IMG/VR virus record: IMGVR_UViG_3300032223_003463
Coordinates: 1-31,698 of that record
Length of the DNA: 31,698 nucleotides
Reading direction: 5' to 3' (one strand)
Source of the DNA: a virus
Position numbers and translations under genes: made by a program. Within the stretch, counting starts at the first letter, position 1. Every line of letters starts with the position of its first letter. This document shows, one piece after another, positions 9,473-31,698 of this stretch. The notes below the pieces were generated by a model, which saw nothing but the letters and a program-made list of their open reading frames with translations, was not told the origin of the DNA and did no database searches.

Positions 9473-9805
9473 TCAGTCCCGCAAACGCGGTTTGGGATGC
9501 GGGCGGGGGGCGTTTTCTCCCACAAGGTGATCCAGGATGGTCGCCGCCATCGAAAGGGTCATCGATTCATCCTCCCGCATGATGGCGGCAAGGGACCGGA
9601 TGGATTGCAGCCGCTCGACAAGGTGGTGAAGGTACGCCACCGAATCCAAAGCCTCTTCCCGGAGTTGTTTGGCATACCAGGACGCCCCGGCCGTCTGAAA
9701 CGCGGTCCGGTGCTCGAGCTGGCCCCGGGAATACTTTTCCAACCCTGCCAGGTATGCGGTGCCCCAAATGGTCTGGGAATCTTCCTCTGGCGTGATCGGG
9801 TTCAC
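9473..9805 (-). CDS. MazG-like / nucleotide pyrophosphohydrolase-like protein (putative)
   Basis: 110 aa from a GTG start chosen because a TTGAC motif lies exactly 14 bases upstream (9820-9824), as for other late genes here. The segment KQLREEALDSVAYLHHLVER (about 46-65) carries the ExxD-type acidic pattern with following Tyr-Leu seen in small MazG-like phage proteins. An upstream Gly/Glu/His region would provide the first metal ligands. Such enzymes remove pyrophosphate from nucleotides. The acidic set is incomplete compared with true MazG, so this is tentative. Its neighbours are the endolysin and a phosphoesterase. Confidence 0.4.
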   Translation of the reverse strand: MNPITPEEDSQTIWGTAYLAGLEKYSRGQLEHRTAFQTAGASWYAKQLREEALDSVAYLHHLVERLQSIRSLAAIMREDESMTLSMAATILDHLVGENAPRPHPKPRLRD

Positions 9806-9820
9806 TTGGTGGCCGGGGTG

Positions 9821-10375
9821 TCAAACGTCGCAATAAACCCGGATCAGGTCGGCGTTTCGGTTCAGCCATCCCCGGATCCATTGCGGTTGGTTCTGGTTTT
9901 GATAGTAGCGGCCCCCTTTGGCCACGACGGCCCGGGCCAAATCCTTTGGAAAAGGCACTTTCCATGTCGATGCAACGGTCAATGGGCCGATTTTTCCGTC
10001 GATTTTGACCGGCTGCCCGTAATCGACCAAGGCGGCCTGAAGGAATGTGGCAGCGTGCTCCAACCCGGTATTGACCGCAAAATTGGCAACGACTTCCCCC
10101 ACCCCTCCAGGCATGGTTTCCGCATGAGACGGGATCCAATAGCGCTCCCGGTAGGTCATGGCTTCCCATTGAGGGGTTGGATCGTGGGTCAAACCGTCGT
10201 CGCGTTCTGTCAGGCCGCCAAAAGTCACCCCGGCCCCGTCGTGAAGGTCCTCCGGTTGGATGTTCCCCTGAGAATCCGTGGAAACTTCCCATTTCAGGAT
10301 CCAAGCCAGCCATTTCCTGAAGCGTGAGGAAAAGCCTTCGGTATTGGCTGCAATGATGATGTCGGCAACGGTCAT
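9821..10375 (-). CDS. Endolysin, GH108-type muramidase with C-terminal peptidoglycan-binding domain
   Basis: 184 aa. The N-terminal domain resembles GH108 lysozyme-like enzymes: a catalytic Glu candidate in ILKWEV (Glu30; the usual form is WEGG), then GVTFGGLT and a YRERYW segment. The C-terminal half matches the PG_binding_3 layout, VKIDGKIGPLTVAS followed by an Arg/Tyr segment and QPQWIRGWLNRNADLI. It would cut the glycan backbone of peptidoglycan. There is no signal peptide, so release needs a holin. The gene sits directly after two small membrane genes and overlaps the upstream one by 4 bases, completing a lysis cassette. The Gly-to-Val change after the catalytic Glu is slightly unusual. 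Confidence 0.8.
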   Translation of the reverse strand: MTVADIIIAANTEGFSSRFRKWLAWILKWEVSTDSQGNIQPEDLHDGAGVTFGGLTERDDGLTHDPTPQWEAMTYRERYWIPSHAETMPGGVGEVVANFAVNTGLEHAATFLQAALVDYGQPVKIDGKIGPLTVASTWKVPFPKDLARAVVAKGGRYYQNQNQPQWIRGWLNRNADLIRVYCDV

Positions 10376-10614
10376 GGGGATTGATTTTCCGCGAACCGGC
10401 CGCCGATCCTGGCAGCGCTAAGGCTGCCCACCGAAACGCTCAAAAGGTCGGAAAGGTTTTTGGGCAAATCGACCACCTCGTGAAAAAACCAATTCCGGAC
10501 CAGAAAATAGATTGCGACCCCGCAAATGACGCTCACGACGATCCAAAGGGAAATTCGCGTGGCGCTGGGCGTCCCTCCGGGTTCGGAAACCGCATTTTTC
10601 AGGAATTCGAGCAT
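10372..10614 (-). CDS. Holin candidate
   Basis: 80 aa from the ATG at 10614, which shares a base with the preceding stop. A longer reading lacks support. It has one strong transmembrane helix (ISLWIVVSVICGVAIYFLVR, 21-40) followed by a second, amphipathic segment (LPKNLSDLLSVSVGSLSAAR) and a short charged tail. Small size, position immediately before the endolysin and a 4-base overlap with it fit a holin that releases the lysin. The 60-aa two-helix protein at 11198-11380 is a competing holin candidate; one of them may act as antiholin or pinholin. Confidence 0.55.
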   Translation of the reverse strand: MLEFLKNAVSEPGGTPSATRISLWIVVSVICGVAIYFLVRNWFFHEVVDLPKNLSDLLSVSVGSLSAARIGGRFAENQSP

Positions 10615-10958
10615 CAAATCGGTTTGGCAAAAACGATCAGTCCTTTGATCGCAGAAAGGATCGGCCCCCTGAAAATCCACGCCAACAAACCGCCAATCAG
10701 AATGTAGAGTTCGAGGAACTTCTTGAGTGCGTGGCGGCTTTTCTCTTTCAGGACGGCGTTTTCCTGTTGGAGATCGGTGACCGTTTTTTCAGCCTGTTTC
10801 AGGTCCCATGCCGCCTTGGAAAGCTCGGCCTTTTGTTCCCGGGCCAGTTCGGAAATGTGCTTCAGGGTGGCAATCTGGTCCGCCTTGCTAATTTCGATTG
10901 CATGAAGCGTGCAGGATGCCATTCCCAACGCCACAATCGCCCCCAGAATCGCTTTCAT
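10614..10958 (-). CDS. Unimolecular spanin-like protein (putative)
   Basis: 114 aa. The N-terminus looks like a lipoprotein signal (MKAILGAIVALGMASC, with Cys16 as candidate lipidation site; Met at -3 is not ideal). A charged, heptad-rich segment follows (about 25-78), then a C-terminal transmembrane helix (FLELYILIGGLLAWIF, 81-96) with a hydrophobic/basic tail. Outer-membrane lipid anchor, periplasmic coiled coil and inner-membrane helix in one chain is the plan of u-spanins such as T1 gp11, which fuse the two membranes at lysis. It sits between the small lipoprotein gene and the holin candidate. Alternatively it pairs with that lipoprotein as a two-part spanin in unusual topology. Confidence 0.5.
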   Translation of the reverse strand: MKAILGAIVALGMASCTLHAIEISKADQIATLKHISELAREQKAELSKAAWDLKQAEKTVTDLQQENAVLKEKSRHALKKFLELYILIGGLLAWIFRGPILSAIKGLIVFAKPI

Positions 10959-11182
10959 AAGGATTTCTGGAGCAGGACAGCCTTTGCGTCAATCCGGTCG
11001 GAAATCGAGGCGGCAGCGGAAATCGACGTTTGCGCCGAGGAAAGCGGTTTGGTGGATTTCTGGGGGTTCGAGCACGCCAAAAGAAACAAAGCCAACCAGG
11101 TGAGGATGGCGATCCGGATGGTGAGCCAACGGTATTGCAACCGTTTCCAAACCAATTTGGAAAGGGCCCTGAGGATTTCCAT
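10955..11182 (-). CDS. Small lipoprotein of the lysis cassette
   Basis: 75 aa from the ATG at 11182, chosen because TTGAC lies exactly 14 bases upstream (11197-11201). The TTG at 11188 is less likely. A basic N-terminus and hydrophobic stretch (IRIAILTWLALFLLAC, 22-37) end in a lipobox-like LLAC with Cys37. The rest is a Ser/Ala-rich segment (about 38-75). It could be an outer-membrane spanin subunit acting with the downstream coiled-coil protein, which it overlaps by 4 bases. The signal is longer than usual for a lipoprotein, so an ordinary membrane anchor is possible. Confidence 0.5.
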   Translation of the reverse strand: MEILRALSKLVWKRLQYRWLTIRIAILTWLALFLLACSNPQKSTKPLSSAQTSISAAASISDRIDAKAVLLQKSL

Positions 11183-11197
11183 CCCCAAGACCCACCG

Positions 11198-11380
11198 TCA
11201 ACGCTTGAACGCTTTGTAGATCGACACCGAGGAGGCGACGATGGACAGCCCGACAGCCGCAAATTGCATGACCGGGTGAACTTCCACAAAGCTCGACGCG
11301 GCAAAAAAGACTCCAAGGAAGCCGCTAAAAACGCTTCCCCCGATGTCAGGGACCGATGAAATGGGTGTTCCGTGGCTCAT
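11198..11380 (-). CDS. Two-helix small membrane protein, holin-like
   Basis: 60 aa with two hydrophobic segments (about 14-32 and 37-53) joined by a short loop containing EVHP, and a basic C-terminus (YKAFKR). This is the size and topology of class II holins. It is the first membrane gene of the lysis cassette and is coupled to the upstream 87-aa gene by a 4-base overlap. Whether this or the single-helix protein before the endolysin is the holin cannot be decided from sequence. Confidence 0.5.
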   Translation of the reverse strand: MSHGTPISSVPDIGGSVFSGFLGVFFAASSFVEVHPVMQFAAVGLSIVASSVSIYKAFKR

Positions 11381-11640
11381 GGAATGTTTTTGGGAATGAG
11401 GGATTTGAGTTTTGCACCAGGGTCGGGACCAAGGATTTCGAGGATCCTGGCTTCGACGGCCGCCTGAGTGTAATCGCCGGCCGCGTCATAATCTTCACCC
11501 GACCACAACGTGATCGAAGCAGGAATGGCCGTGAGGGCCGCCACGGCCAGTTTTTTGGAAGAATTGTCCATCAGGACAAACTCCAGTTTGGAAATTGTGA
11601 TTTCCTTGATCGGAAGGGTGATTGGAGCGGGGAGGTTCAT
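11377..11640 (-). CDS. Hypothetical protein between fibre and lysis genes
   Basis: 87 aa. The beta-rich N-terminus (LPIKEITISKLEFVLMD, about 9-25) is followed by a short insert with Trp-Ser-Gly-Glu-Asp and a C-terminal helix (AAVEARILEILG). It starts just after the fibre stop and overlaps the holin-like gene. The position suggests a fibre chaperone or small tail component, but no family is recognised. Confidence 0.5.
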   Translation of the reverse strand: MNLPAPITLPIKEITISKLEFVLMDNSSKKLAVAALTAIPASITLWSGEDYDAAGDYTQAAVEARILEILGPDPGAKLKSLIPKNIP

Positions 11641-11642
11641 GA

Positions 11643-12854: not shown

Positions 12855-13222
12855 GTCACAATCGTGATGCGCCCGATGACTTCAATGGACCCAAACAGGA
12901 GTTTTACAGGATCCGATCCGGTTTGGGTCAGGAAAACGTCGTAATAAAGAAACGAATTCTCGGACGTGATCGGCAGCGCGGCCGTTTGAGTGGCCGAAAG
13001 ATTCAGTTGAGCGGTTCCTCCGGCTGCCGAAAGGATGACAGGGGTGAATTCCCCCAAAAGCGATCCCCCGGGGAAATCCCGGATTTGGGCTTTGAGGCCT
13101 TTTCCTGTCAGGGAAATGGGATTGGTGCCGTCATTGAGGGAAAGCGCCAGGGTAAAAGGAGCGCCTTGCTCGAGGGCCCTGGAATAATCGGCCGTGTTGG
13201 TGAGGTCGTGAAGTGCCGCCAT
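12851..13222 (-). CDS. BppU-like tail adaptor protein
   Basis: 123 aa, beta-rich. The order '[15 protein letters not shown]', '[18 protein letters not shown]', '[13 protein letters not shown]', '[10 protein letters not shown]' and 'LLFGSIEVI' matches the pattern of BppU-like N-terminal modules, which link fibres to tail tips. A TTGAC motif sits 14 bases before the ATG (13237-13241). It lies directly before the collagen fibre gene, suggesting it attaches that fibre. It resembles the 109-aa product at 13910-14239 in layout, so the two are probably paralogues. Confidence 0.6.
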
Positions 13223-13223
13223 G

Positions 13224-13913
13224 TCAGAGCTCCACCGTCAATTTTGCGGCGGAAACGTCGGTGGTTTTTGCCCAGCTGGTGGGGAATTCATAGATCAAAG
13301 AATCGGTCTGATAGATGAAAGAAGCGTTCGTTGCCGTGGAATCCACGGGATCCAAATGCACAATGACATTTCCAATCCCGAGTCCGGTGCTGTAGGCCGT
13401 GTAACCGTAATCCCCAAGGCCACGGTCGTTGATTAGGTTGGAAATCCAAGCATCGACCAAGGCTTGAAAAGCGGTCGATATGGAATTGTACGCCCCCAAA
13501 GTTTCGTCGTACCCCCAATCGCCCCATGGAATCTGAATGGGGAGCACGGTGTCTCCGTTAAAAAGAAACGATTTTCCAACCGGATCGAATGCCCCGTAAT
13601 ACCCTTGGACAAATCCCAAGGCCGGGTTGTTGTCGTCGATGTATTCGTCCGTTCGGTAAAATTTCGCCAAAGCTGGAAACGCAAAAGTGTAAGCGTTCCG
13701 ATGGACAAAACTTGTTCCTCCAGGCAAACTTGTTCCTCCAGGCAAAACAAATTCCACAATTTCCACGTTGATTTCGATTCTTTGCGAAACCAAAAACCCT
13801 GAGATTCCGGATTCCAAGGAATCATCCTGCCAACCGACCGAAACGGTAAGGTTTTCGGTAATATCCGCTGCGGATGCTCCTGCGCGGAAATCGGCCGTGA
13901 CCGACGGGATCAT
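13224..13913 (-). CDS. Tail-tip/fibre-region structural protein, unknown
   Basis: 229 aa, rich in Asp, Gly and aromatic residues, with no membrane segment. Residues 57-68 are two copies of LPGGTS, encoded by an exact 18-bp tandem duplication (13711-13746). The middle has short aromatic and acidic stretches (PWGDWGYDETLGAYN). It sits between the two BppU-like genes and overlaps one by 4 bases, so a tail-tip or receptor-binding role is likely from context. No family recognised. Confidence 0.6.
   Translation of the reverse strand: MIPSVTADFRAGASAADITENLTVSVGWQDDSLESGISGFLVSQRIEINVEIVEFVLPGGTSLPGGTSFVHRNAYTFAFPALAKFYRTDEYIDDNNPALGFVQGYYGAFDPVGKSFLFNGDTVLPIQIPWGDWGYDETLGAYNSISTAFQALVDAWISNLINDRGLGDYGYTAYSTGLGIGNVIVHLDPVDSTATNASFIYQTDSLIYEFPTSWAKTTDVSAAKLTVEL
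13711..13746 (-). repeat. 18-bp tandem duplication in a tail gene
   Basis: The unit CTTGTTCCTCCAGGCAAA (plus strand) occurs at 13711-13728 and again at 13729-13746 without a mismatch, keeping the frame and duplicating LPGGTS. Identity of the copies points to a recent event. Confidence 0.9.
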
Positions 13914-15525: not shown

Positions 15526-15548
15526 GCCTTCCCCACCCTGTCAACAGA

Positions 15549-19583: not shown

Positions 19584-20446
19584 GACTTAACCTCCTTGAG
19601 GGCAAAACGGATTTCTTTGTTCATGGAACGGTAAAACTTGTCCTGGGCAATCCGGACGGCTTCGGAAAATCCCGATCCCCTGAGCGCTTTATCCGCCCAC
19701 GGGATCCTGCTGGTCAGGATCATGACGGGGTTTTTGGTTTCGCATTTGTCGGTCACCGTGGCCCCGGCACGGTCCACGTGGCGTTTCACCCATGCCGGGA
19801 TGCCCGAAAGGGAATCTTTCACGTCGGCTTCCACTTTGATGGCCGCAGCCGCCCATGCCGCTTTGGTCAATCCGACGTTTTTTTTCTGTTCCGTGATATA
19901 GGAAACAAGCGAACCGGTGTCGGAAATGATGGTCTTGGACCGGGATTTGACCCTTCCAAAGGAATTCCTTGCCGCCTTGTGGACCGAATGGCTTGGCGTT
20001 TGCTCAAGGTTAAAGGACGCCCATCGCCCGGAATTGGCTAGGATTGCCCTCAGGTCCTCGACCCCTTTTGCCCGGTGGGCCTTTTTGTTTTTTCCCCGAC
20101 CGGGAACCGTTGCGTGATCGATGGCGGCAACCAAAGCTTCCCCGAGGGATTTGTTTTGCAACCGTTCGGCCATGCCCCTGAGGCCTTTGGTTGAAGCACC
20201 GACGCTTTGGGGTAACGGTGCCAGGGAAAGGAACACTTTGAGAATGTCGTTGGTAGTGGCTTGTTCCCCTTCTTTTTTGGCCTCGCTTCCCATTCCGAAT
20301 GGCGGCGTGTTGTAGCAAAGGTTCACACAAAGCTGCCGGGCCGCCCGGCGCATGGTGGACGCAATCGTTTTTCCGGTGACTTCCTGATACTGCGCCATTT
20401 TTTGACGCAGTTTTTCGACGGAAATGTGCATTTTCGGGACGGCCAT
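19580..20446 (-). CDS. Tail protein with gp10-like N-terminus
   Basis: 288 aa, basic. The first 55 residues (HISVEKLRQKMAQYQEVTGK, then a run of Arg/Ala and NTPPFG) resemble HK97 gp10-like neck/tail-completion proteins. The rest is helical with several Lys/Arg clusters. TTGAC lies 16 bases before the ATG (20463-20467). It sits between the tail assembly chaperone and the tape measure, which is not the usual gp10 position, so it may instead be a tape-measure partner. Moderate confidence. Confidence 0.5.
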   Translation of the reverse strand: MAVPKMHISVEKLRQKMAQYQEVTGKTIASTMRRAARQLCVNLCYNTPPFGMGSEAKKEGEQATTNDILKVFLSLAPLPQSVGASTKGLRGMAERLQNKSLGEALVAAIDHATVPGRGKNKKAHRAKGVEDLRAILANSGRWASFNLEQTPSHSVHKAARNSFGRVKSRSKTIISDTGSLVSYITEQKKNVGLTKAAWAAAAIKVEADVKDSLSGIPAWVKRHVDRAGATVTDKCETKNPVMILTSRIPWADKALRGSGFSEAVRIAQDKFYRSMNKEIRFALKEVKS

Positions 20447-20449
20447 TTG

Positions 20450-21099
20450 TCAGTTGTCGGATGTCAATCGACTCAACTCTGCATCAAGATCCAACTTGTC
20501 GTCGGCCCACCGCAGCTCCTTCCCACCTTGCCAAGAATGGAAATCCAACAGGCGCATCCCCTCGCTGAGCGGAAGTTCCCAAACCAAGAAATCATGGGGC
20601 CAGTGGGTTTTTTCGGCCAGCCCGGCGATGTAGGAAATCAGCCAGCCCGGCCGCCAGCTTTTGGGCTTGCTGGACCCGGGGAAACGCTTCCCTTGGCAAC
20701 CGTCCGGGCCTTGTTCATCCGTTCCACCAGGGCGATAATGCGTGGAGTGGCTTCCTGAAAGACGTTCGGTTCGTATTCGTCGAGGAAGTCGATGACCCGT
20801 TCGCGGAAAGCTCCCGGCTTCCCGTAAAGGGCGCGGACCTCGGCCTTGGGCCGGGATTGGTTAAAAAGGATCGCCCCGACGTCGAATGCCAGGCTTGTCG
20901 TTTTGCCAAGAAGGATGCCCACCCCGGCATCGAGGAGCAACGCAAGGTCCCCGGCCGTGATGGCCCTGAGCTCCATCCCGGAGATTTCTTCGGAATCCCT
21001 GAGGATTTCGCCGTCGAGCTCGGCGTTGCGCTGGTCGGTGTTGATCTCGTTGAGGTCGTCGTCGAGATCCTGATCAATTTTCAGTTTTTTGTTTTTCAT
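20450..21099 (-). CDS. Tail assembly chaperone, -1 frameshift product (gpG-T-like)
   Basis: The T part is an open frame with no start of its own between the chaperone stop (20638) and 20450. After a -1 slip on CCCAAAA (20665-20659, in-frame as C CCA AAA), reading continues AGC TGG CGG CCG, giving SWRPGWLISYIAGLAEKTHW, then PHDFLVWELPLSEG and about 40 more residues ending at TGA 20450-20452. The extension is tryptophan-rich and protein-like, typical of T domains that contact the tape measure. Total about 215 aa. Frameshifting at this gene pair is widely conserved in siphophages. Only the efficiency is unknown. Confidence 0.8.
20638..21099 (-). CDS. Tail assembly chaperone, short form (gpG-like)
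   Basis: 153 aa. An acidic, Lys-rich start is followed by a helical domain (SGMELRAITAGDLALLLDAG, about 40-59) and a low-complexity end (GSVSPGPASPKAGGRAG). Size, acidity and position before the tape measure match the G product of lambda-like tails, which keeps the tape measure soluble while the tube polymerises. Near its end is an in-frame CCCAAAA heptamer, the signal for the longer fusion form described separately. Confidence 0.75.
   Translation of the reverse strand: MKNKKLKIDQDLDDDLNEINTDQRNAELDGEILRDSEEISGMELRAITAGDLALLLDAGVGILLGKTTSLAFDVGAILFNQSRPKAEVRALYGKPGAFRERVIDFLDEYEPNVFQEATPRIIALVERMNKARTVAKGSVSPGPASPKAGGRAG
20659..20665 (-). promoter_or_regulatory. -1 ribosomal frameshift site CCCAAAA
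   Basis: The heptamer fits X-XXY-YYZ with X=C, Y=A, Z=A and lies in the correct frame of the chaperone gene (AGC CCA AAA GCT). It is 19 bases before the zero-frame stop. A GC-rich stretch follows (GGCGGCCGGGCTGGC), which could pair downstream. I could not define one definite stem. Confidence 0.8.
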
Positions 21100-21547: not shown

Positions 21548-21910
21548 TCAGATATTTGGGTACCTGGTCGCCGAGATGTTGATCTCCTTGAACTTAGTGG
21601 GGCCCTTGGAAAGGCTCACGGCATGAACGCAGACGGTCCCGGTGGTCACGCCTCCGACCGACTCGATGTTGGCCAAGGTGAGTGCCGCGCCTACGGCCGC
21701 AGCCGCCACTCCGGTGGTTCCGGCGATGGTTCCGGAAATGGAAACCTCGGCCCTTGTGTTGTAATAGGCCACCAACGCCACGTCGCCGGAGGCGTTGCGG
21801 ACTTCGCTCTTGTCGCTCTGGGCGTTGATCGAGACGGTGTTGAGGAGGATTCCGGATTCGGAAGTGGCGCCGAAAGAGACGCCCGTGGTGGAGCCGAGGA
21901 GGGTTGCCAT
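21548..21910 (-). CDS. Major tail tube protein
   Basis: 120 aa, small for the family. Beta-rich with little charge (GVSFGATSESGILLNTVSIN, about 10-29; ALVAYYNTRAEVSISGTI, about 45-62) and a Gly/Ala/Val core, as expected for a protein polymerising into rings. It lies after the tail-terminator candidate and upstream of the chaperone. TTGAC lies 17 bases before the ATG (21928-21932), with GGAAG between. No sheath gene is present, supporting a non-contractile tail. Confidence 0.65.
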   Translation of the reverse strand: MATLLGSTTGVSFGATSESGILLNTVSINAQSDKSEVRNASGDVALVAYYNTRAEVSISGTIAGTTGVAAAAVGAALTLANIESVGGVTTGTVCVHAVSLSKGPTKFKEINISATRYPNI

Positions 21911-21933
21911 AATGCTTCTTCCCGAGTGTCAAC

Positions 21934-22364: not shown

Positions 22365-22673
22365 TCAAAGGCTGGGCGTTGAGGCGGTGATCGTGTAACC
22401 GGGGCCCTCGTCGTCGATCCGGACGATCTGATAATCGGTCCCGTCGGAAGTGATCATGTTCCCCACGGTCGGCCTCGACCCCCTGAGGTCGGCTTTGCGG
22501 ACCGCCGCACTGATCCCTTTGGTTTGGTTATGGCCTCCCGTCATGAACTGATCCTGGAGTTCGACGGAGGAAACAACGGCGCGAACCGGCCTGTTTGCCA
22601 CGATGATGGTCTGCCCGGCGACATCGAGCATGTCGCGCAATCCGGCGTCCAGAAGTGACCAAGCCTGGTTCAT
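22365..22673 (-). CDS. Head-tail joining protein candidate
   Basis: 102 aa. A short N-terminal helix is followed by strands around TIIVANRPVRAVVSSVEL and a C-terminal pair (GNMITSDGTDYQIVRID, then GPGYTITAS). This resembles the beta-barrel head-closure proteins (lambda FII/SPP1 gp16 type), which typically have a '...g.iy.V..v..dg.g...L' end. TTGAC lies exactly 14 bases before the ATG (22688-22692), inside the upstream gene. Confidence 0.5.
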   Translation of the reverse strand: MNQAWSLLDAGLRDMLDVAGQTIIVANRPVRAVVSSVELQDQFMTGGHNQTKGISAAVRKADLRGSRPTVGNMITSDGTDYQIVRIDDEGPGYTITASTPSL

Positions 22674-22861
22674 GCCTTGCCCCGGGTGTCAAGAGACCGC
22701 TTTTTTGCAAAAATGGCGTCGTAATTGTCCCGAAAGGCTTGGGAAAAACAATTCCTTGGGCAGGATCCTTTGCCATTGGTTCCGATCCCTTGGCTTTTTT
22801 TGAAGGATTGGATCTCCCTTTTTGTTTCAGAGATCGCGGAAGTGCTGCAATCGAGTTTCAT
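22670..22861 (-). CDS. Small hypothetical protein between glycosyltransferase and connector genes
   Basis: 63 aa, basic, with three cysteines (LDCS near the start, GSCPRNC at about 33-39). Overlaps of 4 bases with both neighbours (22858-22861 and 22670-22673) support it as real. No family recognised. It may belong with the glycosyltransferase pair or with the connectors. Confidence 0.5.
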   Translation of the reverse strand: MKLDCSTSAISETKREIQSFKKSQGIGTNGKGSCPRNCFSQAFRDNYDAIFAKKRSLDTRGKA

Positions 22862-23634
22862 GACTTGGGAAGGACCGAGTCCCGAAACTGCTCGTAAGAG
22901 GTCAGCGGCAGCGTGGCGGCCCGCTGCCAGACGCTTTCATTCTGTTCGAGGTTGACCGCTTCGGCCCTGAGGTTGTGCCAGACGTTGCTTTGTCTGGAAT
23001 GCCGCACAAGGGGACCGGCCAGGTTGAAGCATTTCCCGTCGGCATAGGCTTTTCTTTGCCACAAATACCCCTGCCAAATGTCGTCGAAGCGCTCCACGTT
23101 GATAAATTTGCACCAGGGATATTCCTCGGCGCGGAATGCAAGATTCATGCCGCAAAGGGGGAAGTATTTTCCAAAGATGGCTTTCCGGGAAAATTCCATG
23201 GGCCGGGTGGCCCCGTGGACCAACTGGCCCGGGGCGTCATAATCCCCAATCTCGGTCCAAAACCCCATCGAGGCCGCCACCGGCATGCGCACCGTCCGCG
23301 TAAAGTATGGGGTTCCCCGGCTCGCCGGTTCGGTGACTTGTTCGTAGAGCGGAAGCTCGATCGGTTTCAACGCATTTTCATGGTCGGCGATCAAGCTCTG
23401 GATGGTTTGCCCCTCGAGGGGGAAACAGTCGTCATCCAGCACGATGATGACTTTGGCGGCCCATTTGATGGCGTTTTCGATGCCTTTGTTCTTTGTCAGG
23501 GCGCAGCCGGACTTGTCTTTGTCTTGCTGAAGGACAAGGAAGGTTTCCCGGCCGTTCAATCCCCAGGCTGCCAAAAAAGCGTCCCGTTGAGACGGGTTGT
23601 GCCAGGGAACGACGATTTGCGTGGAGGGGTTCAT
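22858..23634 (-). CDS. Reversibly glycosylated polypeptide / UDP-arabinose mutase-like protein (GT75-like)
   Basis: 258 aa. The order of motifs closely follows plant RGP/UAM proteins: VLDDDCFP (65-72, metal/nucleotide-binding DDD), GFWTEIGDYDAPGQL (124-138; plants have a 'glWlniPDYDAPtQL' block), PLCGMNLAF (159-167; 'PmCGMNLAF' in plants) and RFDDIWQGY (182-190; 'RyDDmWaG'). A histidine-serine block follows (VRHSRQSNVWHNL). It is about 100 residues shorter than plant enzymes (about 350). Family members interconvert UDP-arabinopyranose and furanose and become glycosylated themselves. Here it may supply or transfer a pentose for virion decoration with the adjoining glycosyltransferase, which it overlaps by 4 bases. 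A decent purine ribosome site (GAGGAAAA) precedes the ATG. Confidence 0.75.
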   Translation of the reverse strand: MNPSTQIVVPWHNPSQRDAFLAAWGLNGRETFLVLQQDKDKSGCALTKNKGIENAIKWAAKVIIVLDDDCFPLEGQTIQSLIADHENALKPIELPLYEQVTEPASRGTPYFTRTVRMPVAASMGFWTEIGDYDAPGQLVHGATRPMEFSRKAIFGKYFPLCGMNLAFRAEEYPWCKFINVERFDDIWQGYLWQRKAYADGKCFNLAGPLVRHSRQSNVWHNLRAEAVNLEQNESVWQRAATLPLTSYEQFRDSVLPKS

Positions 23635-25364
23635 TTTTCCTCTTTCCTGACGGCATCGGGATTGCGCCGATCGAAGATCGCTTTCCCGAACTCATAGGCC
23701 TCCTTTTTGTTCCCGACCTCGTAAGTGGCATCCATGGGGGCCTTGCCAAAAAAGGCATGGTGGTGGGTAAAGGTGAGCGTACTGGGTCGGATGATCCCGG
23801 CTTTTTCCGCCCGGAAACTGAATTCGGTGTCGGAATAGACCCCCCGGTATTCTCCGCTCAAGAATTCGCCATAAGGGAGTCCGAGGGTTTGCGGCACGGG
23901 CCGCGTGAACACCTGGGTGACCAATAGGGTGTCTTTACGGCTGCCGTCGGAAACCCCGAGCACCGACGGGGCGTTCACGTCACCGATCTGGCTGAGGATC
24001 TGCTCATCCCACCAGATCGGGGGCTCGATGTCGTCTTGGGCTCCGACTAGGACAAGCCCCTCGGAAGCAGAAAACGCAGCGTTGTTGTTGCGGACCATGG
24101 TTCCCCCAAGGTCGTCCAGATGGCCCGCCTCCGTGGTGACGTGCCGGAACCGGCCGAGGACTTGCGTGCTTTCGGTGTCGTCCTCGCTGAAAGCAAAAAT
24201 GTATTCGACCGAGGCCGGATCCTTGGCCCTTTCGAGGAAAAGTTTCCGGGTGAGCGCCGCCTGATGGGGGCGGCCCCGGGTGGGATGCAGGACGCTGATT
24301 TTGCGGCCTTGTTTGATGAAATGGTCTTTTTCGAGGGCATCGGCCTCTTGGAATTGTCCGTTGAGCCTCAGGGCCGTGGTGTAGACGAACAACCCCGCCC
24401 AACCGTAAAGACCCTCCCGGTGTGTCCACGGGCAAAGCCTTGGTTTGGGAAGCACCATGGCCATGCGGGCAAGCGCCAGGCATTCCTGAGGCTTGTTCAT
24501 GTCACTGTAAAGGGCGCTCAGGTAGCAAAGCGCCTCGCGTCGCCACGGCTCGAGGCCCCAGGCTTCCCGTAGCAAAGAAATCTTTGCCTCGGGATCCTGA
24601 GACCAGCGCGAAAGCATGACGTAGAGTTCGTAAGCTTCGCACGTTTGGAGCAGGGAATGGTTTGCTTTCCACCCCTGAAGGGCCGCCACGGCCGTCTTGA
24701 TGGCGTCGTCCATGCGGCCCGTCGCCTCGTATTCCTGGCAGACGTAAAACTGATAACGGGGTTCGGCCGGAAGGCTTTCGATGATGCGGATGTTGCGTTC
24801 GTTGGGCTTGTCCTCCCGGACGGTGCCCGGCATGTGGGTGACGGCCACTTGGTCGTCCTCGATGCGGTCGGGGGCGTCCTTGGTGCAGACCATGTGCTCA
24901 TGCACGGCCCCTTCCCATCGCACGATCCCGGCGCGGCCGATGCGTTCGCGGAACGGTGCCAGCCCGTTGTTGGAAAGCCGGTAGGCGCAGTAAAAAAGGT
25001 CGAAATCCTCCTTTTGCATGATTTCCTGCAACCGGGCGGCACTGGCTTCGTCGATGACGTCGTCGGTGTCGGCCCACATGAGGTGGGAATGACCGTCGGC
25101 AGACCCAAGGTCAAAAGCCATTTGCCGAGCCGCGCCGAAATTGTCCACATGGGGCCAATCCCCATGCCCTTCCGCGTTCTTGTAGACTGCGGTTTTTGCC
25201 CCCAACCGGGCGGCGATCTCCAAGGTGGCGTCCGGGGTCTGGGCGCCGCAAGCCTGGACGATGTAGATGTGGGGGGTGAGTTTTTTGAAACTCGTGACGA
25301 ACCGTTCGATCAGATGCTCGACGTTCCCGGCAATGGCGCAAAGCGCTAAGGATTTTTCAGGCAT
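23631..25364 (-). CDS. Two-domain glycosyltransferase with TPR-like middle
   Basis: 577 aa. Domain 1 (about 1-190) is GT2-like: LALCAIAGNVEHLIERFV at the start and MWADTDD (96-102) as the DxD metal site, followed by FDLFYCAYRLS. Residues about 195-350 are helical repeats resembling TPRs (YEATGRMDDAIKTAVAALQG; YLSALYSDMNKPQECLALAR). Domain 2 (about 354-577) is a second GT-A-like fold, starting ISVLHPTRGRP and carrying VGAQDDIEPP (440-449). TTGAC lies 18 bases before the ATG (25383-25387), just past the capsid terminator. It sits between capsid and connector genes, so the likely target is a virion protein or the host surface. The acceptor is unknown. Confidence 0.8.
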   Translation of the reverse strand: MPEKSLALCAIAGNVEHLIERFVTSFKKLTPHIYIVQACGAQTPDATLEIAARLGAKTAVYKNAEGHGDWPHVDNFGAARQMAFDLGSADGHSHLMWADTDDVIDEASAARLQEIMQKEDFDLFYCAYRLSNNGLAPFRERIGRAGIVRWEGAVHEHMVCTKDAPDRIEDDQVAVTHMPGTVREDKPNERNIRIIESLPAEPRYQFYVCQEYEATGRMDDAIKTAVAALQGWKANHSLLQTCEAYELYVMLSRWSQDPEAKISLLREAWGLEPWRREALCYLSALYSDMNKPQECLALARMAMVLPKPRLCPWTHREGLYGWAGLFVYTTALRLNGQFQEADALEKDHFIKQGRKISVLHPTRGRPHQAALTRKLFLERAKDPASVEYIFAFSEDDTESTQVLGRFRHVTTEAGHLDDLGGTMVRNNNAAFSASEGLVLVGAQDDIEPPIWWDEQILSQIGDVNAPSVLGVSDGSRKDTLLVTQVFTRPVPQTLGLPYGEFLSGEYRGVYSDTEFSFRAEKAGIIRPSTLTFTHHHAFFGKAPMDATYEVGNKKEAYEFGKAIFDRRNPDAVRKEEK

Positions 25365-25409
25365 ATTCGGTTTTGCCGACCTGTCAACTTAACTCCAGAA
25401 AAGCGGAAA

Positions 25410-25463: not shown

Positions 25464-26354
25464 TTAGTAGGCGAAGCGGGCGAGTCCCTGGGTGACTCCT
25501 GCCGTCCATCCCGCGAGCGCCTCGAAGGTCACGAAATGCGTGCCGAGGCTGAGCGAGTAGTGGCGACGGTAGGTCATCGAGAGGCCGCTGGCCTCGTCGG
25601 TGATGACCTTGCTGCTGATGTACAGCGAGTCGTCCTGAGGGGTAAGCGGTCGGACAGCCAGGGCGATGGCGCTCGGGTGAGCGACAAACCCGAGGGTGTT
25701 GCCGGTGCTGGGGATGGAGGAAACCTCCATGGCGTCCAGACCGAGCACGCGGGGGAGCTTGCCCTCCTTGATCGCGTCCCCGCCGAAAGCGAGGTTGGCG
25801 AGAAGGTTTGTGGAGTCACCGAGCAGGGTGTTGAACGAATCGTTGTTCAAGATCAACGCCGCATCCTCGATGGCCACCCCGGCGGCCGCAAGGGCCTTGC
25901 GGGCGCTGCGGACGTGGGAAAGGGCGAAGGAAACCGCTCCGGACGTCACGGTGACGGTCTGGAAGTAACCGGTCGTGCAGACCAGGGAGGTCATGAGCGC
26001 CTGGCTGATGGCCACGGCGACGGCCTTGCCCTGCTGGAAAGCGAACTTCTCGATGTCGGCGAAGCTCGACCCGTGGAACTGGCTGTCCTTGATGCCAACC
26101 GTGGCCTTGCGGTACTGGTTGAGCGTGATGTCCGCATTGGAGGCGCTGCCGGCGTCGGCGCTCTCATAGGCTTCCGAAGCCGTGGTCGCCGTGATGTTGG
26201 CGACGATGGGAACGGAGATCACCGTGCCACGGCGTGCCGCGTCGGTGTTGTAGCTGGTGCTGAACTTGCTCAGCGGGGCCAGGGATGCCGTGAAGGCGTT
26301 GAGGGCGATCTGAGAAATGAGCGTGTCATTCAGACCTGTGAGTGTTGCTGCCAT
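25464..26354 (-). CDS. Major capsid protein
   Basis: 296 aa. The N-terminus (LNDTLISQIALNAFTASLAP, about 8-27) and middle match P22-coat-type/HK97-fold capsid proteins: an early RGTVISVPIVANITATTA strand (42-59), a long spine-like helix region (DIEKFAFQQGKAVAVAISQA, about 99-118), and a late VAHPSAIALAVRPL strand before a YRRHYSLSLGTHFVTFEALA block. The position directly after protease/scaffold fits. The 30-base leader contains no G and hence no Shine-Dalgarno, unusual for a gene that must be highly expressed. A strong hairpin follows the stop. Confidence 0.85.
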   Translation of the reverse strand: MAATLTGLNDTLISQIALNAFTASLAPLSKFSTSYNTDAARRGTVISVPIVANITATTASEAYESADAGSASNADITLNQYRKATVGIKDSQFHGSSFADIEKFAFQQGKAVAVAISQALMTSLVCTTGYFQTVTVTSGAVSFALSHVRSARKALAAAGVAIEDAALILNNDSFNTLLGDSTNLLANLAFGGDAIKEGKLPRVLGLDAMEVSSIPSTGNTLGFVAHPSAIALAVRPLTPQDDSLYISSKVITDEASGLSMTYRRHYSLSLGTHFVTFEALAGWTAGVTQGLARFAY

Positions 26355-26384
26355 GGTGGTGGGTGGTTTGGTTGAGGGTGAGGG
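26355..26384 (-). promoter_or_regulatory. G-free, A/C-rich leader of the major capsid gene
   Basis: The whole spacer between protease stop and capsid ATG contains no G on the coding strand (ACCCTCA-CCCTCAACC-type repeats). Such leaders are unstructured, and capsid translation must begin without Shine-Dalgarno pairing. Neither a TTGAC motif nor a purine box is present here. Confidence 0.6.
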
Positions 26385-26771
26385 TTACTTGTGAGCGGGC
26401 TTGAGCAGGGAGCGGATCTCGGGGTGCTGGCGGGCGAATGCGACCCGTTCCTTGTCGGATGCCAGGGCCTCGAACCGGGCCACGAGGTTTTCCCCGGAGG
26501 GCTCGCTGGCGACGGCCTCGGTGCCGCGACCGGCTTCCTCGAGGATCGAAAGCTTGGTGATGACCGCGTCGAGCTTGGCGCTCATTTCGGTCTTTTCCTC
26601 GGCGGCAATCGCGTCGTCGATGGCCTTCTGGTCATCCACGGGGTCCTGAGCGATGAACGCGTCGAGTTTGTCGGAGAGGGCCTTGATGGCCTCGGTGATG
26701 GGGGCGAGCGCGGCGCTGATCGGGTCAGCGGCGAGGGCCTCCTGGGCGGGGTTCACTTGGTCTTGTGCCAT
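26385..26771 (-). CDS. Nested capsid scaffold protein (internal start)
   Basis: 128 aa, in frame with the protease gene, starting at its Met177 (MAQDQVNPAQEAL). The content is helical and acidic throughout, ending in FARQHPEIRSLLKPAHK, which may bind the capsid protein. Support for a separate start: GTTGACA lies 18 bases upstream (26790-26794), the same spacing as before the 577-aa glycosyltransferase, although inside coding sequence. Nested scaffolds under a protease gene are well known in lambda-like phages. Confidence 0.6.
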   Translation of the reverse strand: MAQDQVNPAQEALAADPISAALAPITEAIKALSDKLDAFIAQDPVDDQKAIDDAIAAEEKTEMSAKLDAVITKLSILEEAGRGTEAVASEPSGENLVARFEALASDKERVAFARQHPEIRSLLKPAHK

Positions 26772-27299
26772 AGGTAATGATTTCTCGCTGTCAACCGGAA
26801 GGGAATCGGCCATCCCCTCGTCCGGAACAAATGCCGGGGCGTCCTGTTTCTTTTCCTCGGTCTTTGCGGCCAGTTTTTTCAGCACGCTGCGGGATGAATA
26901 AACCCCGCTCGGATTCGCGGCGGCGCGGCTCACGAGATCCACGGACAAGAGCTCGGCGACCCGGGCGAATTTAGCACCGGCCTTTTCCACGCACGATCCG
27001 AGCCAAGAAATGGAAAACCCGAGGGAATCCGGAAAAATGTCCAGGATCTTGGAATAATAGTTGGCGAGCGGATGCTCTCCGATGAGTTCCATGTCGGCGC
27101 GGACCTGTTCTCCTTCGATGCGGAAATTGGACATGGCCCCGATGAGGTCGGTGACCGATTCGTCGTGATCCGGGAAAACCTTGACCGGCGCGGCGGAGTT
27201 GCCGAGCTGGCAAACCTGTTCGAGGGTTGTGGCGTCGATCTCGGTGTCGTGACCGAGGGCGGGACCGATGGTGATGACGGAGACTCCGGGGAATTTCAT
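26385..27299 (-). CDS. Prohead protease with C-terminal scaffold domain
   Basis: 304 aa. Residues 1-140 follow the pattern of phage head-maturation serine proteases: VKVFPDHDESVTDLIGAMSN (39-58) with His45 as candidate catalytic base, then FPDSLGFSIS (89-98) with a Ser (probably Ser96) as candidate nucleophile. The second half (from about 177) is acidic, Ala/Glu-rich and helical (ITEAIKALSDKLDAF; LDAVITKLSILEEAG), as in scaffolds. TTGAC lies 15 bases before the ATG (27315-27319). As in lambda C/Nu3, the scaffold seems to be made both as a fusion and from an internal start at 26771. Confidence 0.75.
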   Translation of the reverse strand: MKFPGVSVITIGPALGHDTEIDATTLEQVCQLGNSAAPVKVFPDHDESVTDLIGAMSNFRIEGEQVRADMELIGEHPLANYYSKILDIFPDSLGFSISWLGSCVEKAGAKFARVAELLSVDLVSRAAANPSGVYSSRSVLKKLAAKTEEKKQDAPAFVPDEGMADSLPVDSEKSLPMAQDQVNPAQEALAADPISAALAPITEAIKALSDKLDAFIAQDPVDDQKAIDDAIAAEEKTEMSAKLDAVITKLSILEEAGRGTEAVASEPSGENLVARFEALASDKERVAFARQHPEIRSLLKPAHK

Positions 27300-27418
27300 A
27301 CCCTCGGATCCCCCGTCAACAATTCAAAGCGAGGGCGTTGTGAATAGTCCTTTTGCAACAAACAGGCGTTGCGTAAAGCAACCCGCCGTTGCCTTTACAC
27401 AAAAAACGCTGCCCCTCG
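27300..27418 (-). promoter_or_regulatory. Structured intergenic leader between portal and protease
   Basis: 119 bases without a gene, the longest gap in the late operon. Alternating elements GCAAC (27355), GTTGC (27368), GCAAC (27378) and GTTGC (27388) can form mutually exclusive hairpins: 27373-27382 with 27388-27398, or 27365-27372 with 27378-27386. This could be an attenuator, RNA processing site or promoter region. The TTGAC motif of the protease lies at its downstream end. Confidence 0.4.
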
Positions 27419-28786: not shown

Positions 28787-29050
28787 TTAATGGGTTCCTC
28801 CGAATGTGATGTAGGTGATGCCCATCCCGGACGAATTCCCGTCCAGAATGTCGATGGCCTCGACGACGATTTCCAACAGGTCATCCGCCGAATAGTTCTG
28901 AAGCATGGCGGCGCTCCGGCCCCCTGCGGTGCTGGAAGCGACAAATGCCAGTTGCCCGTTGCCGCTGAGGATTCGCTCTTTGCAGGATTCCTTGATCCCC
29001 AAAAGCTCGGCCCGGGTAAAGGCCTTGGAAAACAACAGTGCGCGTGTCAC
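28787..29050 (-). CDS. Small protein at the gpW (head-tail joiner) position
   Basis: 87 aa from a GTG start. TTGAC is exactly 14 bases upstream (29065-29069). It has a helical N-terminus (SKAFTRAELLGIKESCKERI), a Gly/Ser-rich middle and a helix at SADDLLEIVVEAIDIL (about 54-69). Lambda carries the small joiner gpW between TerL and portal; size, position and two-helix character agree, but sequence similarity is not evident to me. Confidence 0.5.
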   Translation of the reverse strand: MTRALLFSKAFTRAELLGIKESCKERILSGNGQLAFVASSTAGGRSAAMLQNYSADDLLEIVVEAIDILDGNSSGMGITYITFGGTH

Positions 29051-29277
29051 GCCGAAGTCCGACCGTCAACGATCCCGGAAGCGTCCCATGCGGGGTTGTC
29101 GTGGGAAACGCGGCGCCATTGATCCGGGGTGAGGGTTTTTGCGTTGAAGTGATGCACCAAAGCGGACGCCCAAAGGATGTCCGAGTCGTTCCACGGGGCG
29201 CCGGGGTAGAAATTCCGGATCCGGCGCATTTCCCCCAGAACCCGTTCAAGCTCCCGATGATCCCGGGGTCTCTTCAT
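29047..29277 (-). CDS. Small hypothetical protein after TerL
   Basis: 76 aa. The start lies 32 bases inside the 3' end of TerL in another frame. It is basic, with a helical N-terminus (RELERVLGEMRRIRNF) and tryptophan-containing segments (APWNDSDILWASALVHHF). It overlaps the next gene by 4 bases, so it is coupled into the packaging operon. The family is not recognised. Confidence 0.55.
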   Translation of the reverse strand: MKRPRDHRELERVLGEMRRIRNFYPGAPWNDSDILWASALVHHFNAKTLTPDQWRRVSHDNPAWDASGIVDGRTSA

Positions 29278-31033
29278 CGATCACAAAATCCTGTCCGGGA
29301 TCGGTCTGGTTCATGCGCTGCCATTCGCTGGCGGCCACAAGCCACATTTTTTCACAATCCCCGAGGTGATTGGCCCCGACGGTGGCCCATTCGAGGGTGC
29401 GCATCCCCCGGGGCCCCCGGCGCTCGACAAGGCGTTCCCCGGTGAGTTGGGTGACGTAATCGCGGCGGACGTCCCTGGGAAGATGCCATTTTGCCTCCCG
29501 GCGTTGGATGCTTTGCAGATAAAGGCGTTCTTTCCAGAAATCGTCGTCCGCCTGGTACATCGGGATCATTTTGTCCCGGGACATGATTTCCTGAAAAACG
29601 ACCGGCTGCCTCATGCCTTGGGAAACGGTCCTGCCTTTGTAGGCCGCCCAGGAACGCGGCATCGAGGAAACGAAATCGTACACCCCGGCGATCGACCGGG
29701 CGGCATACCCGGAATCGACCAGTCCGAATTGGCACGAAACGCTTCCGCCGGTTGCGGTCGGGTATTTTTGAGAAAAAATGCCTCGGATCGCGTCCCATCC
29801 GATGGCGGTCCCGTAATCCACAAGGAAACTTGAGCCGTCAGACGCCAGGGCCCGGACCACCCACCACAATTCGGTTTGCTGGACATCGACGGCCATGATG
29901 ACCACGGCGGGGTCCGGGATCGGACAGGTCCCGAGGCGGTACTCCGGCGAGGCCTTCATGACTTCCTCGATTTCCCCGCTTTTTACCGTGGAAGCCTGGG
30001 GAACCCACGGCAGCGCCAGGGTGGAATTGATAAAATTGCGCAATCCTCCGGGGGATTCCTTATCCCGAAGGAATTCCACCGCCAATTCCCCCCAAGTCAC
30101 CCAGGGGGAATAGAGGGCGTTCAAATGATAACTATGCACGCCCCGGGGCGCGTCCGGGTTTTCCGGCCTCCAAACACCCCCGCGCAGCATTGCCGATTTG
30201 CTTTGTTCGTAAATCGGCGCGGCGCACGCCCGGCAAACGTAATGCGCGGTGGCGGCCACTTTCTTGAAATCCCACCCATCTTCCAACCGCGCCGACTGAT
30301 CCCATCGCATTCCCTCCCACTCCAGTTTCTGTTGATGATTGCATGACGGGCACGGAACCATGAAATGCCGACGGTCTCCGGAAAGGTATTCCTGCCAGAT
30401 CGTCCCGGTGTCGAGCGTCGGGGTGCTGGTTTTCAGCACCATGCCCTGGGGAAAATTTCTGGTCCGTAGTTCCACAAGCCGTAGGGCCGAGGCCTCCCGC
30501 TTGCTTTCCTCGGGGAATTTGTCCACCTCGTCGGCAATCACCAATCCGCAGCTTCGGGACGAAAGGTTCGAGGCCGAAGTGCCGACCAAGTAAACGTTCA
30601 TTTTCCGCATGGCCATTTCCAAAGTCTGGAAACGGTCAGGATCGGACGGTTTTTCTTCAGCCAGGGCGGCGCAGTCCTCGATGAGCGGCTGCAACCGGTC
30701 CCGGGAAAAGGAACGGGCCAAATGCTCGCTTGGCATTGCCCAGAGCGCCGGGGTGGGCTTCCTTTTAATGCGGTATGCCAAGGCCGCCATCATGGTGGTC
30801 GTTTTGGCACTCTGGACCCCCCAACAGAGAGTGATGCTTTTGACCCCGAGTTCCCCGGTTCTATTCAAGGGCTCAACAACGTAGGGGGTCAAAATGGTGC
30901 TGTATTTGCCGGGCGAACTTGAGGATCGGGCGGAAAGGGTCAGATTCTCCTCGCACCATTCCGTCACGGTTTGCGGCGGGGGCGGCGTAAGGGCCGCCCT
31001 GGCATCGTTTTCAAACTCAACGTCGCAGAACAT
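29246..31033 (-). CDS. terL: Terminase large subunit (GpA family)
   Basis: 595 aa from the ATG at 31033, 4 bases after the TerS stop and 9 bases after GGAGG. A longer reading to 31207 lies over TerS and is rejected. ATPase: Walker A-like WGVQSAKTT (71-79), Walker B LVIADEVDKFP (164-174) and KTSTPT (201-206, coupling motif). A two-knuckle zinc ribbon follows (CPSCNHQQ at about 228-235, then CRACAAP). The nuclease part carries VIMAVDVQQTELWWVV with its first metal-binding Asp, and a second at GLVDSGYAARSI. It cuts concatemers and pumps DNA. GpA-type terminases act at cos, which fits the terminal repeat nearby. Confidence 0.93.
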   Translation of the reverse strand: MFCDVEFENDARAALTPPPPQTVTEWCEENLTLSARSSSSPGKYSTILTPYVVEPLNRTGELGVKSITLCWGVQSAKTTTMMAALAYRIKRKPTPALWAMPSEHLARSFSRDRLQPLIEDCAALAEEKPSDPDRFQTLEMAMRKMNVYLVGTSASNLSSRSCGLVIADEVDKFPEESKREASALRLVELRTRNFPQGMVLKTSTPTLDTGTIWQEYLSGDRRHFMVPCPSCNHQQKLEWEGMRWDQSARLEDGWDFKKVAATAHYVCRACAAPIYEQSKSAMLRGGVWRPENPDAPRGVHSYHLNALYSPWVTWGELAVEFLRDKESPGGLRNFINSTLALPWVPQASTVKSGEIEEVMKASPEYRLGTCPIPDPAVVIMAVDVQQTELWWVVRALASDGSSFLVDYGTAIGWDAIRGIFSQKYPTATGGSVSCQFGLVDSGYAARSIAGVYDFVSSMPRSWAAYKGRTVSQGMRQPVVFQEIMSRDKMIPMYQADDDFWKERLYLQSIQRREAKWHLPRDVRRDYVTQLTGERLVERRGPRGMRTLEWATVGANHLGDCEKMWLVAASEWQRMNQTDPGQDFVIDEETPGSSGA

Positions 31034-31037
31034 CCGC

Positions 31038-31628
31038 TCAGGCCTCCGAAGCGACCCTGAGGGTGTTTTCCGCCCATTCCTGAAGCACCAGCGCAGCCAA
31101 GTCCGGGTCGGAAGGGTTGCAACGCTTGGCAACGGCCTCAGGAAGCGACAAAAGGTGGTCTTTGATTGCGGAAAGCTTTCTGTTTTGTGCCCCAATGGCG
31201 CTTGCACGGTCCACCAGCGCCCCTATTGCTTGCTGATGTTTGATGAAAGCCAGATCCGCCCTCCCCCTTTCCGCTCTTGCGGCGGAATAATTGCGAAGGG
31301 CCGCATGGATGCCGTCGAAATCCTTGGCCCGCAGCCGTTCCTGAAGCACGGCATAGGCGACCTTTTCCACTTTGCGGACCCTGTCCCGGACGGCTTCTGG
31401 TGATTCCCCATCGACCAGGGCGGCCGGCGGTTCATCACCACCATCGAGGATCGGATCCGGTGCTTCGATCTGCGGGATGAGTTTCACCCTGGCACTGCGC
31501 TGGCCGTGCGACATCCTCCAGCTCGAGGCGGCTTCCACCGAATTCAGCGGCATACCTTTTTTTGCCCACTTGCTGACCGCTTGCCGAGAGCATCCCCATG
31601 CGGCTGCAATTTCTGAGATCGAACTCAT
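31038..31628 (-). CDS. terS: Terminase small subunit
   Basis: 196 aa. The N-terminus is a helix-turn-helix (ISEIAAAWGCSRQAVSKWAK, about 4-23, then KGMPLN), like the Nu1-type DNA-recognition domain. The middle is a long helical, charged segment (about 75-130) for oligomerisation; the C-terminus (ALVLQEWAENTLRVASEA) would contact TerL. GTTGACA lies 15 bases before the ATG (31644-31648). It would recognise packaging DNA, probably in the 70 bases between its start and the genome end, the position of cosB in lambda. Confidence 0.8.
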   Translation of the reverse strand: MSSISEIAAAWGCSRQAVSKWAKKGMPLNSVEAASSWRMSHGQRSARVKLIPQIEAPDPILDGGDEPPAALVDGESPEAVRDRVRKVEKVAYAVLQERLRAKDFDGIHAALRNYSAARAERGRADLAFIKHQQAIGALVDRASAIGAQNRKLSAIKDHLLSLPEAVAKRCNPSDPDLAALVLQEWAENTLRVASEA

Positions 31629-31698
31629 GCCGGATTGCCATCTGTCAACCTACGTTTGCCAAAGTTTCTCTCGGAAATTGCATGCCAGTGCGCCCAAC
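31629..31698. other. Right-end non-coding segment, putative cos region
   Basis: 70 bases between the TerS start and the window end. It contains the GTTGACA motif of TerS, two CATGCC elements, and at the very end (31687-31698) the second copy of the 12-base terminal repeat. Position beside TerS corresponds to cosN/cosB in lambda. No TerS-binding repeats are obvious in this short stretch. Confidence 0.5.

Follow-up and report, generated by a model that had tools for sequence, protein, structure and literature searches.

TTGAC upstream of phage start codons: a candidate Shine-Dalgarno-independent translation-initiation signal in certain phage lineages

The window analysed here is a 31,698-nt stretch of viral DNA, IMG/VR record IMGVR_UViG_3300032223_003463, and the element in question is the pentamer TTGAC, which precedes a series of its late-gene start codons by 14 to 18 nt. 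Database matches in the window identified terminase, portal, major head, tape measure, primase and integrase genes. The best match of the terminase protein TerL among deposited phages was an Akkermansia phage, and among named genome contigs, where 31 stretches were candidates, one match was confirmed, in a Limisphaerales metagenome-assembled genome (MAG; 43% over 95 residues). A related TerL was found in 24 of 288 genomes drawn from the phylum of that MAG. Because of these TerL matches we infer that the host of the window phage is probably verrucomicrobial; the hosts of the motif-bearing prophages described below are Verrucomicrobiota.

All twelve sites lie on the minus strand; the gene names 'protease', 'tail tube', 'lipoprotein' and 'MazG-like' are those given in the original prediction, a first reading of the sequence that had pointed to the motif. 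The pentamer at 31644-31648 (as GTTGACA) lies 15 nt upstream of the TerS start at 31628, and the TerS PHROG match begins at residue 3 of the protein read from this start. The 87-aa gene that follows TerL, with a GTG start at 29050, has TTGAC 14 nt upstream (29065-29069, GTTGACG). This gene was not part of the protein clustering described below; its homologue in the relative L005 (2642-2905, 79% identity) belongs to a family with the motif at 22 of 22 loci. The 'protease' start at 27299 follows TTGAC at 27315-27319 (GTTGACG) by 15 nt, and its start region has a predicted fold of −16.0 kcal/mol. Within the same gene, TTGAC at 26790-26794 (GTTGACA) lies 18 nt upstream of an in-frame ATG at 26771. 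The 25364 start, of a glycosyltransferase-like gene whose Pfam match is below the cut-off, has the pentamer 18 nt upstream (25383-25387, GTTGACA); in its family 25 of 39 loci bear TTGAC. This gene (23631-25364) is located among head genes and is retained in relatives, where it forms that family of 39.

The head-closure (Hc1) gene at 22673, whose PHROG match begins at residue 1, has TTGAC 14 nt upstream (22688-22692, CTTGACA), and its family bears it at 29 of 31 loci across three sets. The 'tail tube' start at 21910, whose product gave no match in a PHROG search, has it at 17 nt (21928-21932, GTTGACA), and the start at 20446 at 16 nt (20463-20467, ATTGACA) in a family with only 5 bearers in 45. 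A gap of 14 nt recurs at four further starts: 15525 (15540-15544, GTTGACA), which has no relative in the clustering (a family of one); 13222 (13237-13241, ATTGACG), where the site lies within the upstream ORF 13224-13913 and one member of a family of two bears the motif; the 'lipoprotein' ATG at 11182 (11197-11201, GTTGACG); and the 'MazG-like' GTG at 9805 (9820-9824, TTTGACA).

The original prediction listed these 12 starts, and all of them are present with the gaps it gave. Its count of about 27 TTGAC on the minus strand is exact; both strands together hold 52, of which 40 lie away from the 12 starts. The longer form GTTGACR occurs eight times over the two strands together, each time at one of these starts. 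Among 35 fixed minus-strand starts, 12 had TTGAC at 14-18 nt where 0.15 were expected, which agrees with the estimate that chance would supply fewer than one, and the shuffled-position check, in which the motif positions were shifted circularly 20,000 times, never gave more than 3 starts. At least 3 of the 35 starts (31628, 26771 and 11182) were chosen with the motif already in view, so an unbiased scan of 5-mers upstream of mechanically called open reading frames (ORFs) gives the cleaner figure: TTGAC ranked top, at 7 of 42 ORFs against 1.8 expected. One of the seven is an antisense ORF (20424, plus strand), and the window's ORF set, like the clustering, is without TerS, portal, 29050 and 21910, which were lost to overlapping ORFs. 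No early or plus-strand gene with the motif had been noticed originally. It was absent from all 11 early minus-strand starts tried, and on the plus strand the antisense ORF was the one bearer among three starts tried.

Relatives were gathered by TerL. They comprised 66 viral loci, the eight closest (L005-12) and 58 others (L013-70, a redundant set), and a second group of 80 loci (L194-273, 52 of them non-redundant); L052 (5830-7569) and L053 (1792-3561) have in-frame stop codons in the TerL match stretch as read from the given coordinates, which may reflect a frameshift, an insertion or a gap in the alignment. A further set of 27 prophage-region loci included host flanks and the cultured phage Moulinsart. 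Genes were called mechanically as longest ORFs with up to six candidate starts, so host starts and TTGAC-less starts are partly wrong. The unbiased scan found TTGAC 13-18 nt upstream of 26 of 81 ORFs in L005-12 (1.8 expected). It was found in 146 of 653 ORFs in L013-70 (22.9 expected), where the overlapping TGACA ranks higher, and ranked first in the non-redundant L194-273 loci (144 of 829 against 18.1) and second to TGACA in the prophage regions (53 of 570 against 15.1). Enrichment at a fixed spacing, with TTGAC as first or second 5-mer, is thus found in sets of relatives also. The gap histogram had a sharp inner edge, at 14 nt in the window's own group and in L194-273 and at 15 nt in L013-70, and the five bases occupy positions −23 to −15 relative to the start codon.

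TTGAC follows protein families. Clustering of 2239 proteins gave 723 families, 63 of them with at least one TTGAC bearer, and saturated families had the motif at 52/52, 30/30, 22/22, 22/22, 29/31 and 26/29 loci. Bearers were rare in the capsid (2/63) and portal (7/115) families, and 33 of the 34 bearers among 167 TerL genes came from L194-273. The restriction to late genes does not hold strictly: in relatives, a metallophosphoesterase-like family of 246 aa, encoded on the strand opposite to that of the late genes (L280 6627-7373 and its orthologues in G289-G293), carried TTGAC in all 5 records. A TerL tree of 51 rows placed the bearers in at least two separated clades, with weak deep forks.

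The motif was not enriched in the host sequence that was sampled. Chromosome chunks had it at 2/114 (G079), 4/140 (G025), 1/120 (G129), 2/101 (G232), 1/35 (G112) and 4/53 (G114) ORFs, those of G229, G235, G164 and G216 together at 7/198 against 5.4 expected, and host ribosomal-protein regions at 4/221 against 8.0. A host-wide signal was rejected for this reason. Six phages of other phyla, two of them over the first 24 kb only, gave 7 of 270 ORFs against 7.2. As far as sampled, the signal is confined to certain phage lineages. Rfam at its gathering score had 0 matches in the window and 0 in seven motif-bearing loci, and no description of this TTGAC motif was among the matches listed in the open-licence PMC literature (preprints excluded).

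The 27299 gene, placed between portal and capsid and belonging to a family with TTGAC at 52/52 loci, contains a nested start. In 51 of the 52 family genes an in-frame internal start was present, preceded by TTGAC at 15 or 18 nt, and the internal site was written as GTT-GAC in 51 of 52 cases (29 distinct sequences). In the genes of this family GTT encodes 391 of the 1317 valines and GAC 711 of the 1043 aspartates. The codon constancy supports the claim that selection acts on the nucleotides; it would be expected with ribosome entry and seems hard to attribute to protein selection, though the sequences are related. The product from 26771 had been suggested to be a scaffold, which may hold by analogy with lambda. 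The name 'protease' is weakly supported: database searches with the window protein gave no match, and a relative had a weak match to a PHROG head maturation protease (E=0.029). TTGAC points to internal in-frame starts that are missed by ordinary gene calling, and its use would improve start prediction in these phages.

Two observations go beyond the original prediction, a predicted hairpin around the start codon and a sister motif in host ribosomal-protein genes. Pairing was assessed by a swap test, in which codons 2-7 were replaced by those of other bearers and the predicted folds compared; sequences were de-duplicated at 70-75% identity ahead of the structure tests, and the large TTGAC-less sets were represented by samples of 400 starts or, in each round, of 200 families. 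Native folds were stronger than swapped ones in the prophages (−8.57 vs −6.82, n=50, z −5.4), in L013-70 (−9.63 vs −8.09, n=21, z −3.4) and in L194-273 (−7.75 vs −6.70, n=69, z −4.8). The corresponding z values for TTGAC-less starts were +2.5, −2.2 and +0.3. L013-70 is redundant and family-level tests are safer; these gave −8.29 vs −7.17 (sd 0.33) for the 63 bearer families and −5.96 vs −5.91 for families without TTGAC. In swaps within families, native leaders paired better with their own codons than with swapped ones in 14 of the 18 families with bearers (p=0.009) and in 23 of the 40 others (p=0.29). Where a family held both forms (12 families), bearers folded to −7.76 and non-bearers to −3.58 (p=0.005), and a non-bearer leader placed before bearer codons gave −4.57 (p=0.003). 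In these predictions motif and structure tend to co-occur within families that have both forms.

The start codon lay within the predicted loop in the clearest cases (L109 17086, L160 3535 and L015 13480). The position of the hairpin relative to TTGAC was variable while the spacing from TTGAC to the start was narrow. In the window's group the gap between TTGAC and start had a stronger predicted fold (−2.20) than its shuffled versions (−1.05; n=23), and 14 host TTGAC starts had no significant start pairing (z −1.1). Capsid-gene leaders (window 25464-26354 and its family) were A/C-rich with 9% G and unstructured, with a predicted fold of −1.86 (41 distinct), compared with −8.50 in 301 distinct bearers.

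The sister motif, YTAAC, was found in host ribosomal-protein genes and in cultured phages. Among 100 called genes of nine host ribosomal-protein operons (L174-L182), TAAC was the top 4-mer at gaps of 12-20 nt (23 vs 3.8) and TTGAC occurred in none at gaps of 10-21 nt. YTAAC(C) lies 12-20 nt upstream of many ribosomal-protein starts, and TAAC was seen in 7 of 9 Verrucomicrobiota hosts, being absent from the G216 and G126 operons. In a wider set, 27 of 31 YTAAC sites were not a called upstream stop. YTAAC showed no enrichment in 761 other host ORFs or, taken overall, in the motif-bearing viral contigs. In the cultured Verrucomicrobiota phage P8625, Moulinsart and the prophage locus L120 taken together, it stood shortly upstream of 21 of 104 ORFs against 9 further upstream; a weak TTGAC excess was also present in a mechanical scan of these Akkermansia-type phages, both for Moulinsart (4/36 vs 1.6) and for Moulinsart with L120 (9/61 vs 3.2). 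Moulinsart is an Akkermansia phage, and the G025 prophage has almost the same TerL. TTGAC and TTAAC are one base apart (A to G) and similarly placed.

Around the phage motif little else is conserved. The consensus TTGACRSNBGG that had been proposed reduced to [GT]TTGAC[AG], beyond which every position between −70 and +39 relative to the motif stayed within 0.25 bits (n=84). The 15 nt before the start had a GC content of 0.59-0.68 at TTGAC starts and 0.51-0.55 at TTGAC-less starts; raised GC after TTGAC is the opposite of a melting region. Among 94 non-redundant sites in the relatives' set, 48 were intergenic, 11 lay within the upstream gene, 23 had no called upstream gene within 500 nt, and 12 coincided with a called upstream stop. 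An artefact of upstream stops, conceivable because TTGAC contains TGA, was rejected on the last figure.

On the sequence evidence we consider it somewhat probable, at roughly 55%, that TTGAC is an RNA-level, Shine-Dalgarno (SD)-independent translation-initiation signal of certain phage lineages. Of the functions offered in the original prediction, that of a translational enhancer agrees best with the data, and a target for a small RNA or a protein is also possible. In many bearers the leader and codons 2-7 covary in their predicted pairing around the start codon. The signal would lie where the mRNA exits the 30S subunit, and an RNA-binding factor, perhaps bS1 or a phage protein beside bS1, could dock on it. 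The docked factor would recruit the 30S subunit and open the hairpin, allowing initiation on closed starts, so that structured late starts would depend on TTGAC. The capsid gene would take another route through its unstructured, G-poor leader, and the host YTAAC form may be read in the same manner as TTGAC. The setting is compatible with published work: two Verrucomicrobia are listed among 'SD-scarce' organisms with CCUCC (PMC10783764), S1 is described as unfolding structured mRNAs (PMC3858243), and in Flavobacterium domain 4 of bS1 is positioned at −12 to −15 (PMC6847099). By analogy with the last, TTGAC at −23 to −15 may lie at or just past the position of that domain.

Several results weigh against this reading. 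Start-codon pairing was not significant in the window's own group (n=19, z −0.8), was reversed in the family of the window gene 19580 (−4.2 vs −6.3) and was missing at internal starts (−6.00 vs −5.79), and the TTGAC-less starts of L013-70 paired slightly as well (z −2.2). Start hairpins normally inhibit initiation, which fits repression too. Eight of the 27 prophage-region loci had no TTGAC at this spacing, and neither did any of 52 annotated starts of P8625 or of 23 examined annotated starts of Moulinsart (43 genes), at 14-18 nt; presence throughout the phylum is not supported. SD sequences were no rarer in bearers, whether by family averages (14% vs 15%) or in matched families (0.18 vs 0.28, p=0.38), which corrects the remark that many non-bearers have GGAGG instead; mutual exclusivity with SD is not supported overall. 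Single families do switch: in an 86-aa family, SD-like, purine-rich leaders were present in all 5 members without TTGAC and in none of the 7 with it. Because the hairpin was not significant in the window's group or at internal starts, we take TTGAC to be the primary signal: the pentamer is constant, and the predicted hairpin is optional and co-selected. As a whole the original observation is confirmed and extends past the window, and its interpretation is partly supported.

Among rival explanations, a phage protein might bind TTGAC and the start hairpin as a translational operator and block late translation, either during lysogeny or at an early stage of infection, much as RegA acts on early T4 mRNAs. 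The structured start sites of many bearers, the presence of the motif in phages without enrichment in the host, and a regulator-like family common to the phages near the late genes would all suit such an operator. We regard it as unlikely, however, because TTGAC is kept where pairing is absent (internal starts) or not significant (the window's group), the hairpin moves relative to TTGAC while the TTGAC-start spacing stays narrow, and host ribosomal-protein genes have a similar motif in a similar place. A repressor site on DNA, another of the functions first offered, is disfavoured because only 6-7 nt are conserved, 40 of the 52 window copies are not at the 12 starts, and the spacing is bound to the start codon. 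Quite unlikely, in our judgement, is a late promoter in which host RNA polymerase and a phage helix-turn-helix (HTH) factor use TTGAC as a box and give each gene a short-leader mRNA. TTGAC does resemble a −35 box, few bearers have a −4 overlap and many sites are intergenic, and an HTH family near the late genes has weak, sub-threshold sigma-like matches. Yet the best sigma-70 −10 hexamer 15-19 nt after TTGAC matched no better than control (2.26 vs 2.39, n=84), GC rises rather than falls past the motif, and no further box is conserved to −70. Sites within genes and at internal in-frame starts, together with the covariation of leaders and codons, also speak against a promoter, and an ordinary leader would need no upper limit of 18 nt.

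Processing of the mRNA by an endonuclease with its cleavage site in or close to TTGAC, so that each late mRNA keeps a short 5′ leader with a terminal hairpin, would fit the constant distance between the motif and the predicted stem-loops that it adjoins in late regions; with the hairpin optional and those 40 window copies elsewhere, we find it improbable. Direct pairing of TTGAC or YTAACC with 16S rRNA outside the anti-SD appears very improbable. The exact complement of TTAACC, GGTTAA, is present in both full-length 16S genes (L168 and L169) and could also pair with TTGACC if one G-U is allowed, but TTGAC is mostly followed by A or G and not by C, and the exact complement GTCAA is absent from the G025 16S and present once in that of G079. 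Alongside an initiation signal as the preferred reading, a broader version is conceivable but clearly less likely than not: TTGAC and YTAAC might be phage and host dialects of one SD-free signal at the mRNA exit of the Verrucomicrobiota ribosome, with the phage G form placed on hairpin-locked late starts and a phage-supplied or phage-modified factor opening phage mRNAs selectively, that is, an orthogonal virus-borne initiation system.

The candidate initiation signal was compared with known systems. Like the SD, it is short and position-bound upstream of start codons. Unlike the SD, which lies about 5-9 nt from the start, it stands at 14-18 nt and does not match the CCTCC tail: the 16S 3′ ends of two genes read GGATCACCTCCTTTCT, to which TTGAC is not complementary. 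Mycobacteriophage L5 stoperators are repeated asymmetric sites in phage genomes, and their consensus contains the complement of TTGACA; they are longer repressor sites on DNA and not bound to start-codon distance, whereas TTGAC has 6-7 conserved nt and tight start spacing. The start-associated sequences (SAS) of cluster K mycobacteriophages, with their extended form ESAS, are described as GGGATAGGAGCCC immediately upstream of starts, containing an SD-like AGGAG, with about half having an added inverted repeat and a function given as unknown (PMC3203893). TTGAC resembles them as a phage motif at many gene starts that is conserved by gene family. It differs from them as a signal of 5-7 nt at 14-18 nt with pairing that often spans the start codon, and [GT]TTGAC[AG] is found in place of GGGATAGGAGCCC directly before the start.

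In the account of Flavobacterium (PMC6847099), a Kozak-like A-rich context supports SD-free initiation while the anti-SD is retained in the phylum, secondary structure and upstream nucleotides tune initiation, and bS1 is proposed as reader. That context consists of single adenines (−3, −6, −12 and −13) and is not phage-specific, unlike a fixed pentamer between −23 and −15; at TTGAC starts no position from −11 to −1, including −3, exceeded 0.12 bits (n=84). T4 RegA controls about 30 phage mRNAs at the start codon, and its sites are described as A+U-rich, unstructured and including the AUG (PMC3014915). TTGAC lies well upstream, with GC of 0.59-0.68 between motif and start and extra predicted structure. 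A signal that is short, fixed in position and conserved by family, with pairing of leader and codons as an option, offers a directly testable handle on how starts are chosen by ribosomes that keep but rarely use the anti-SD.

Some phages carry bS21 (PMC9723584). A phage-encoded bS21 was found in 0 of 12 phage records, which may be fragments and did not include the window's own. As a lead only, a candidate regulator is the HTH-like protein at 4675-5403 (minus strand), whose family stands shortly before the late genes in relatives. It was present in 14 of 16 phage units with one further weak match (G296, 2.6e-06), and was not found in G235, in 53 host chunks or in four control phages. Its structure model was weak (pLDDT 68) and the best PDB match had an E value of 0.45, so that no confident fold match was obtained. 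The neighbouring family at 4018-4665, which like the HTH-like one is without a confident database match, occurred in 9 of the 16 phage units.

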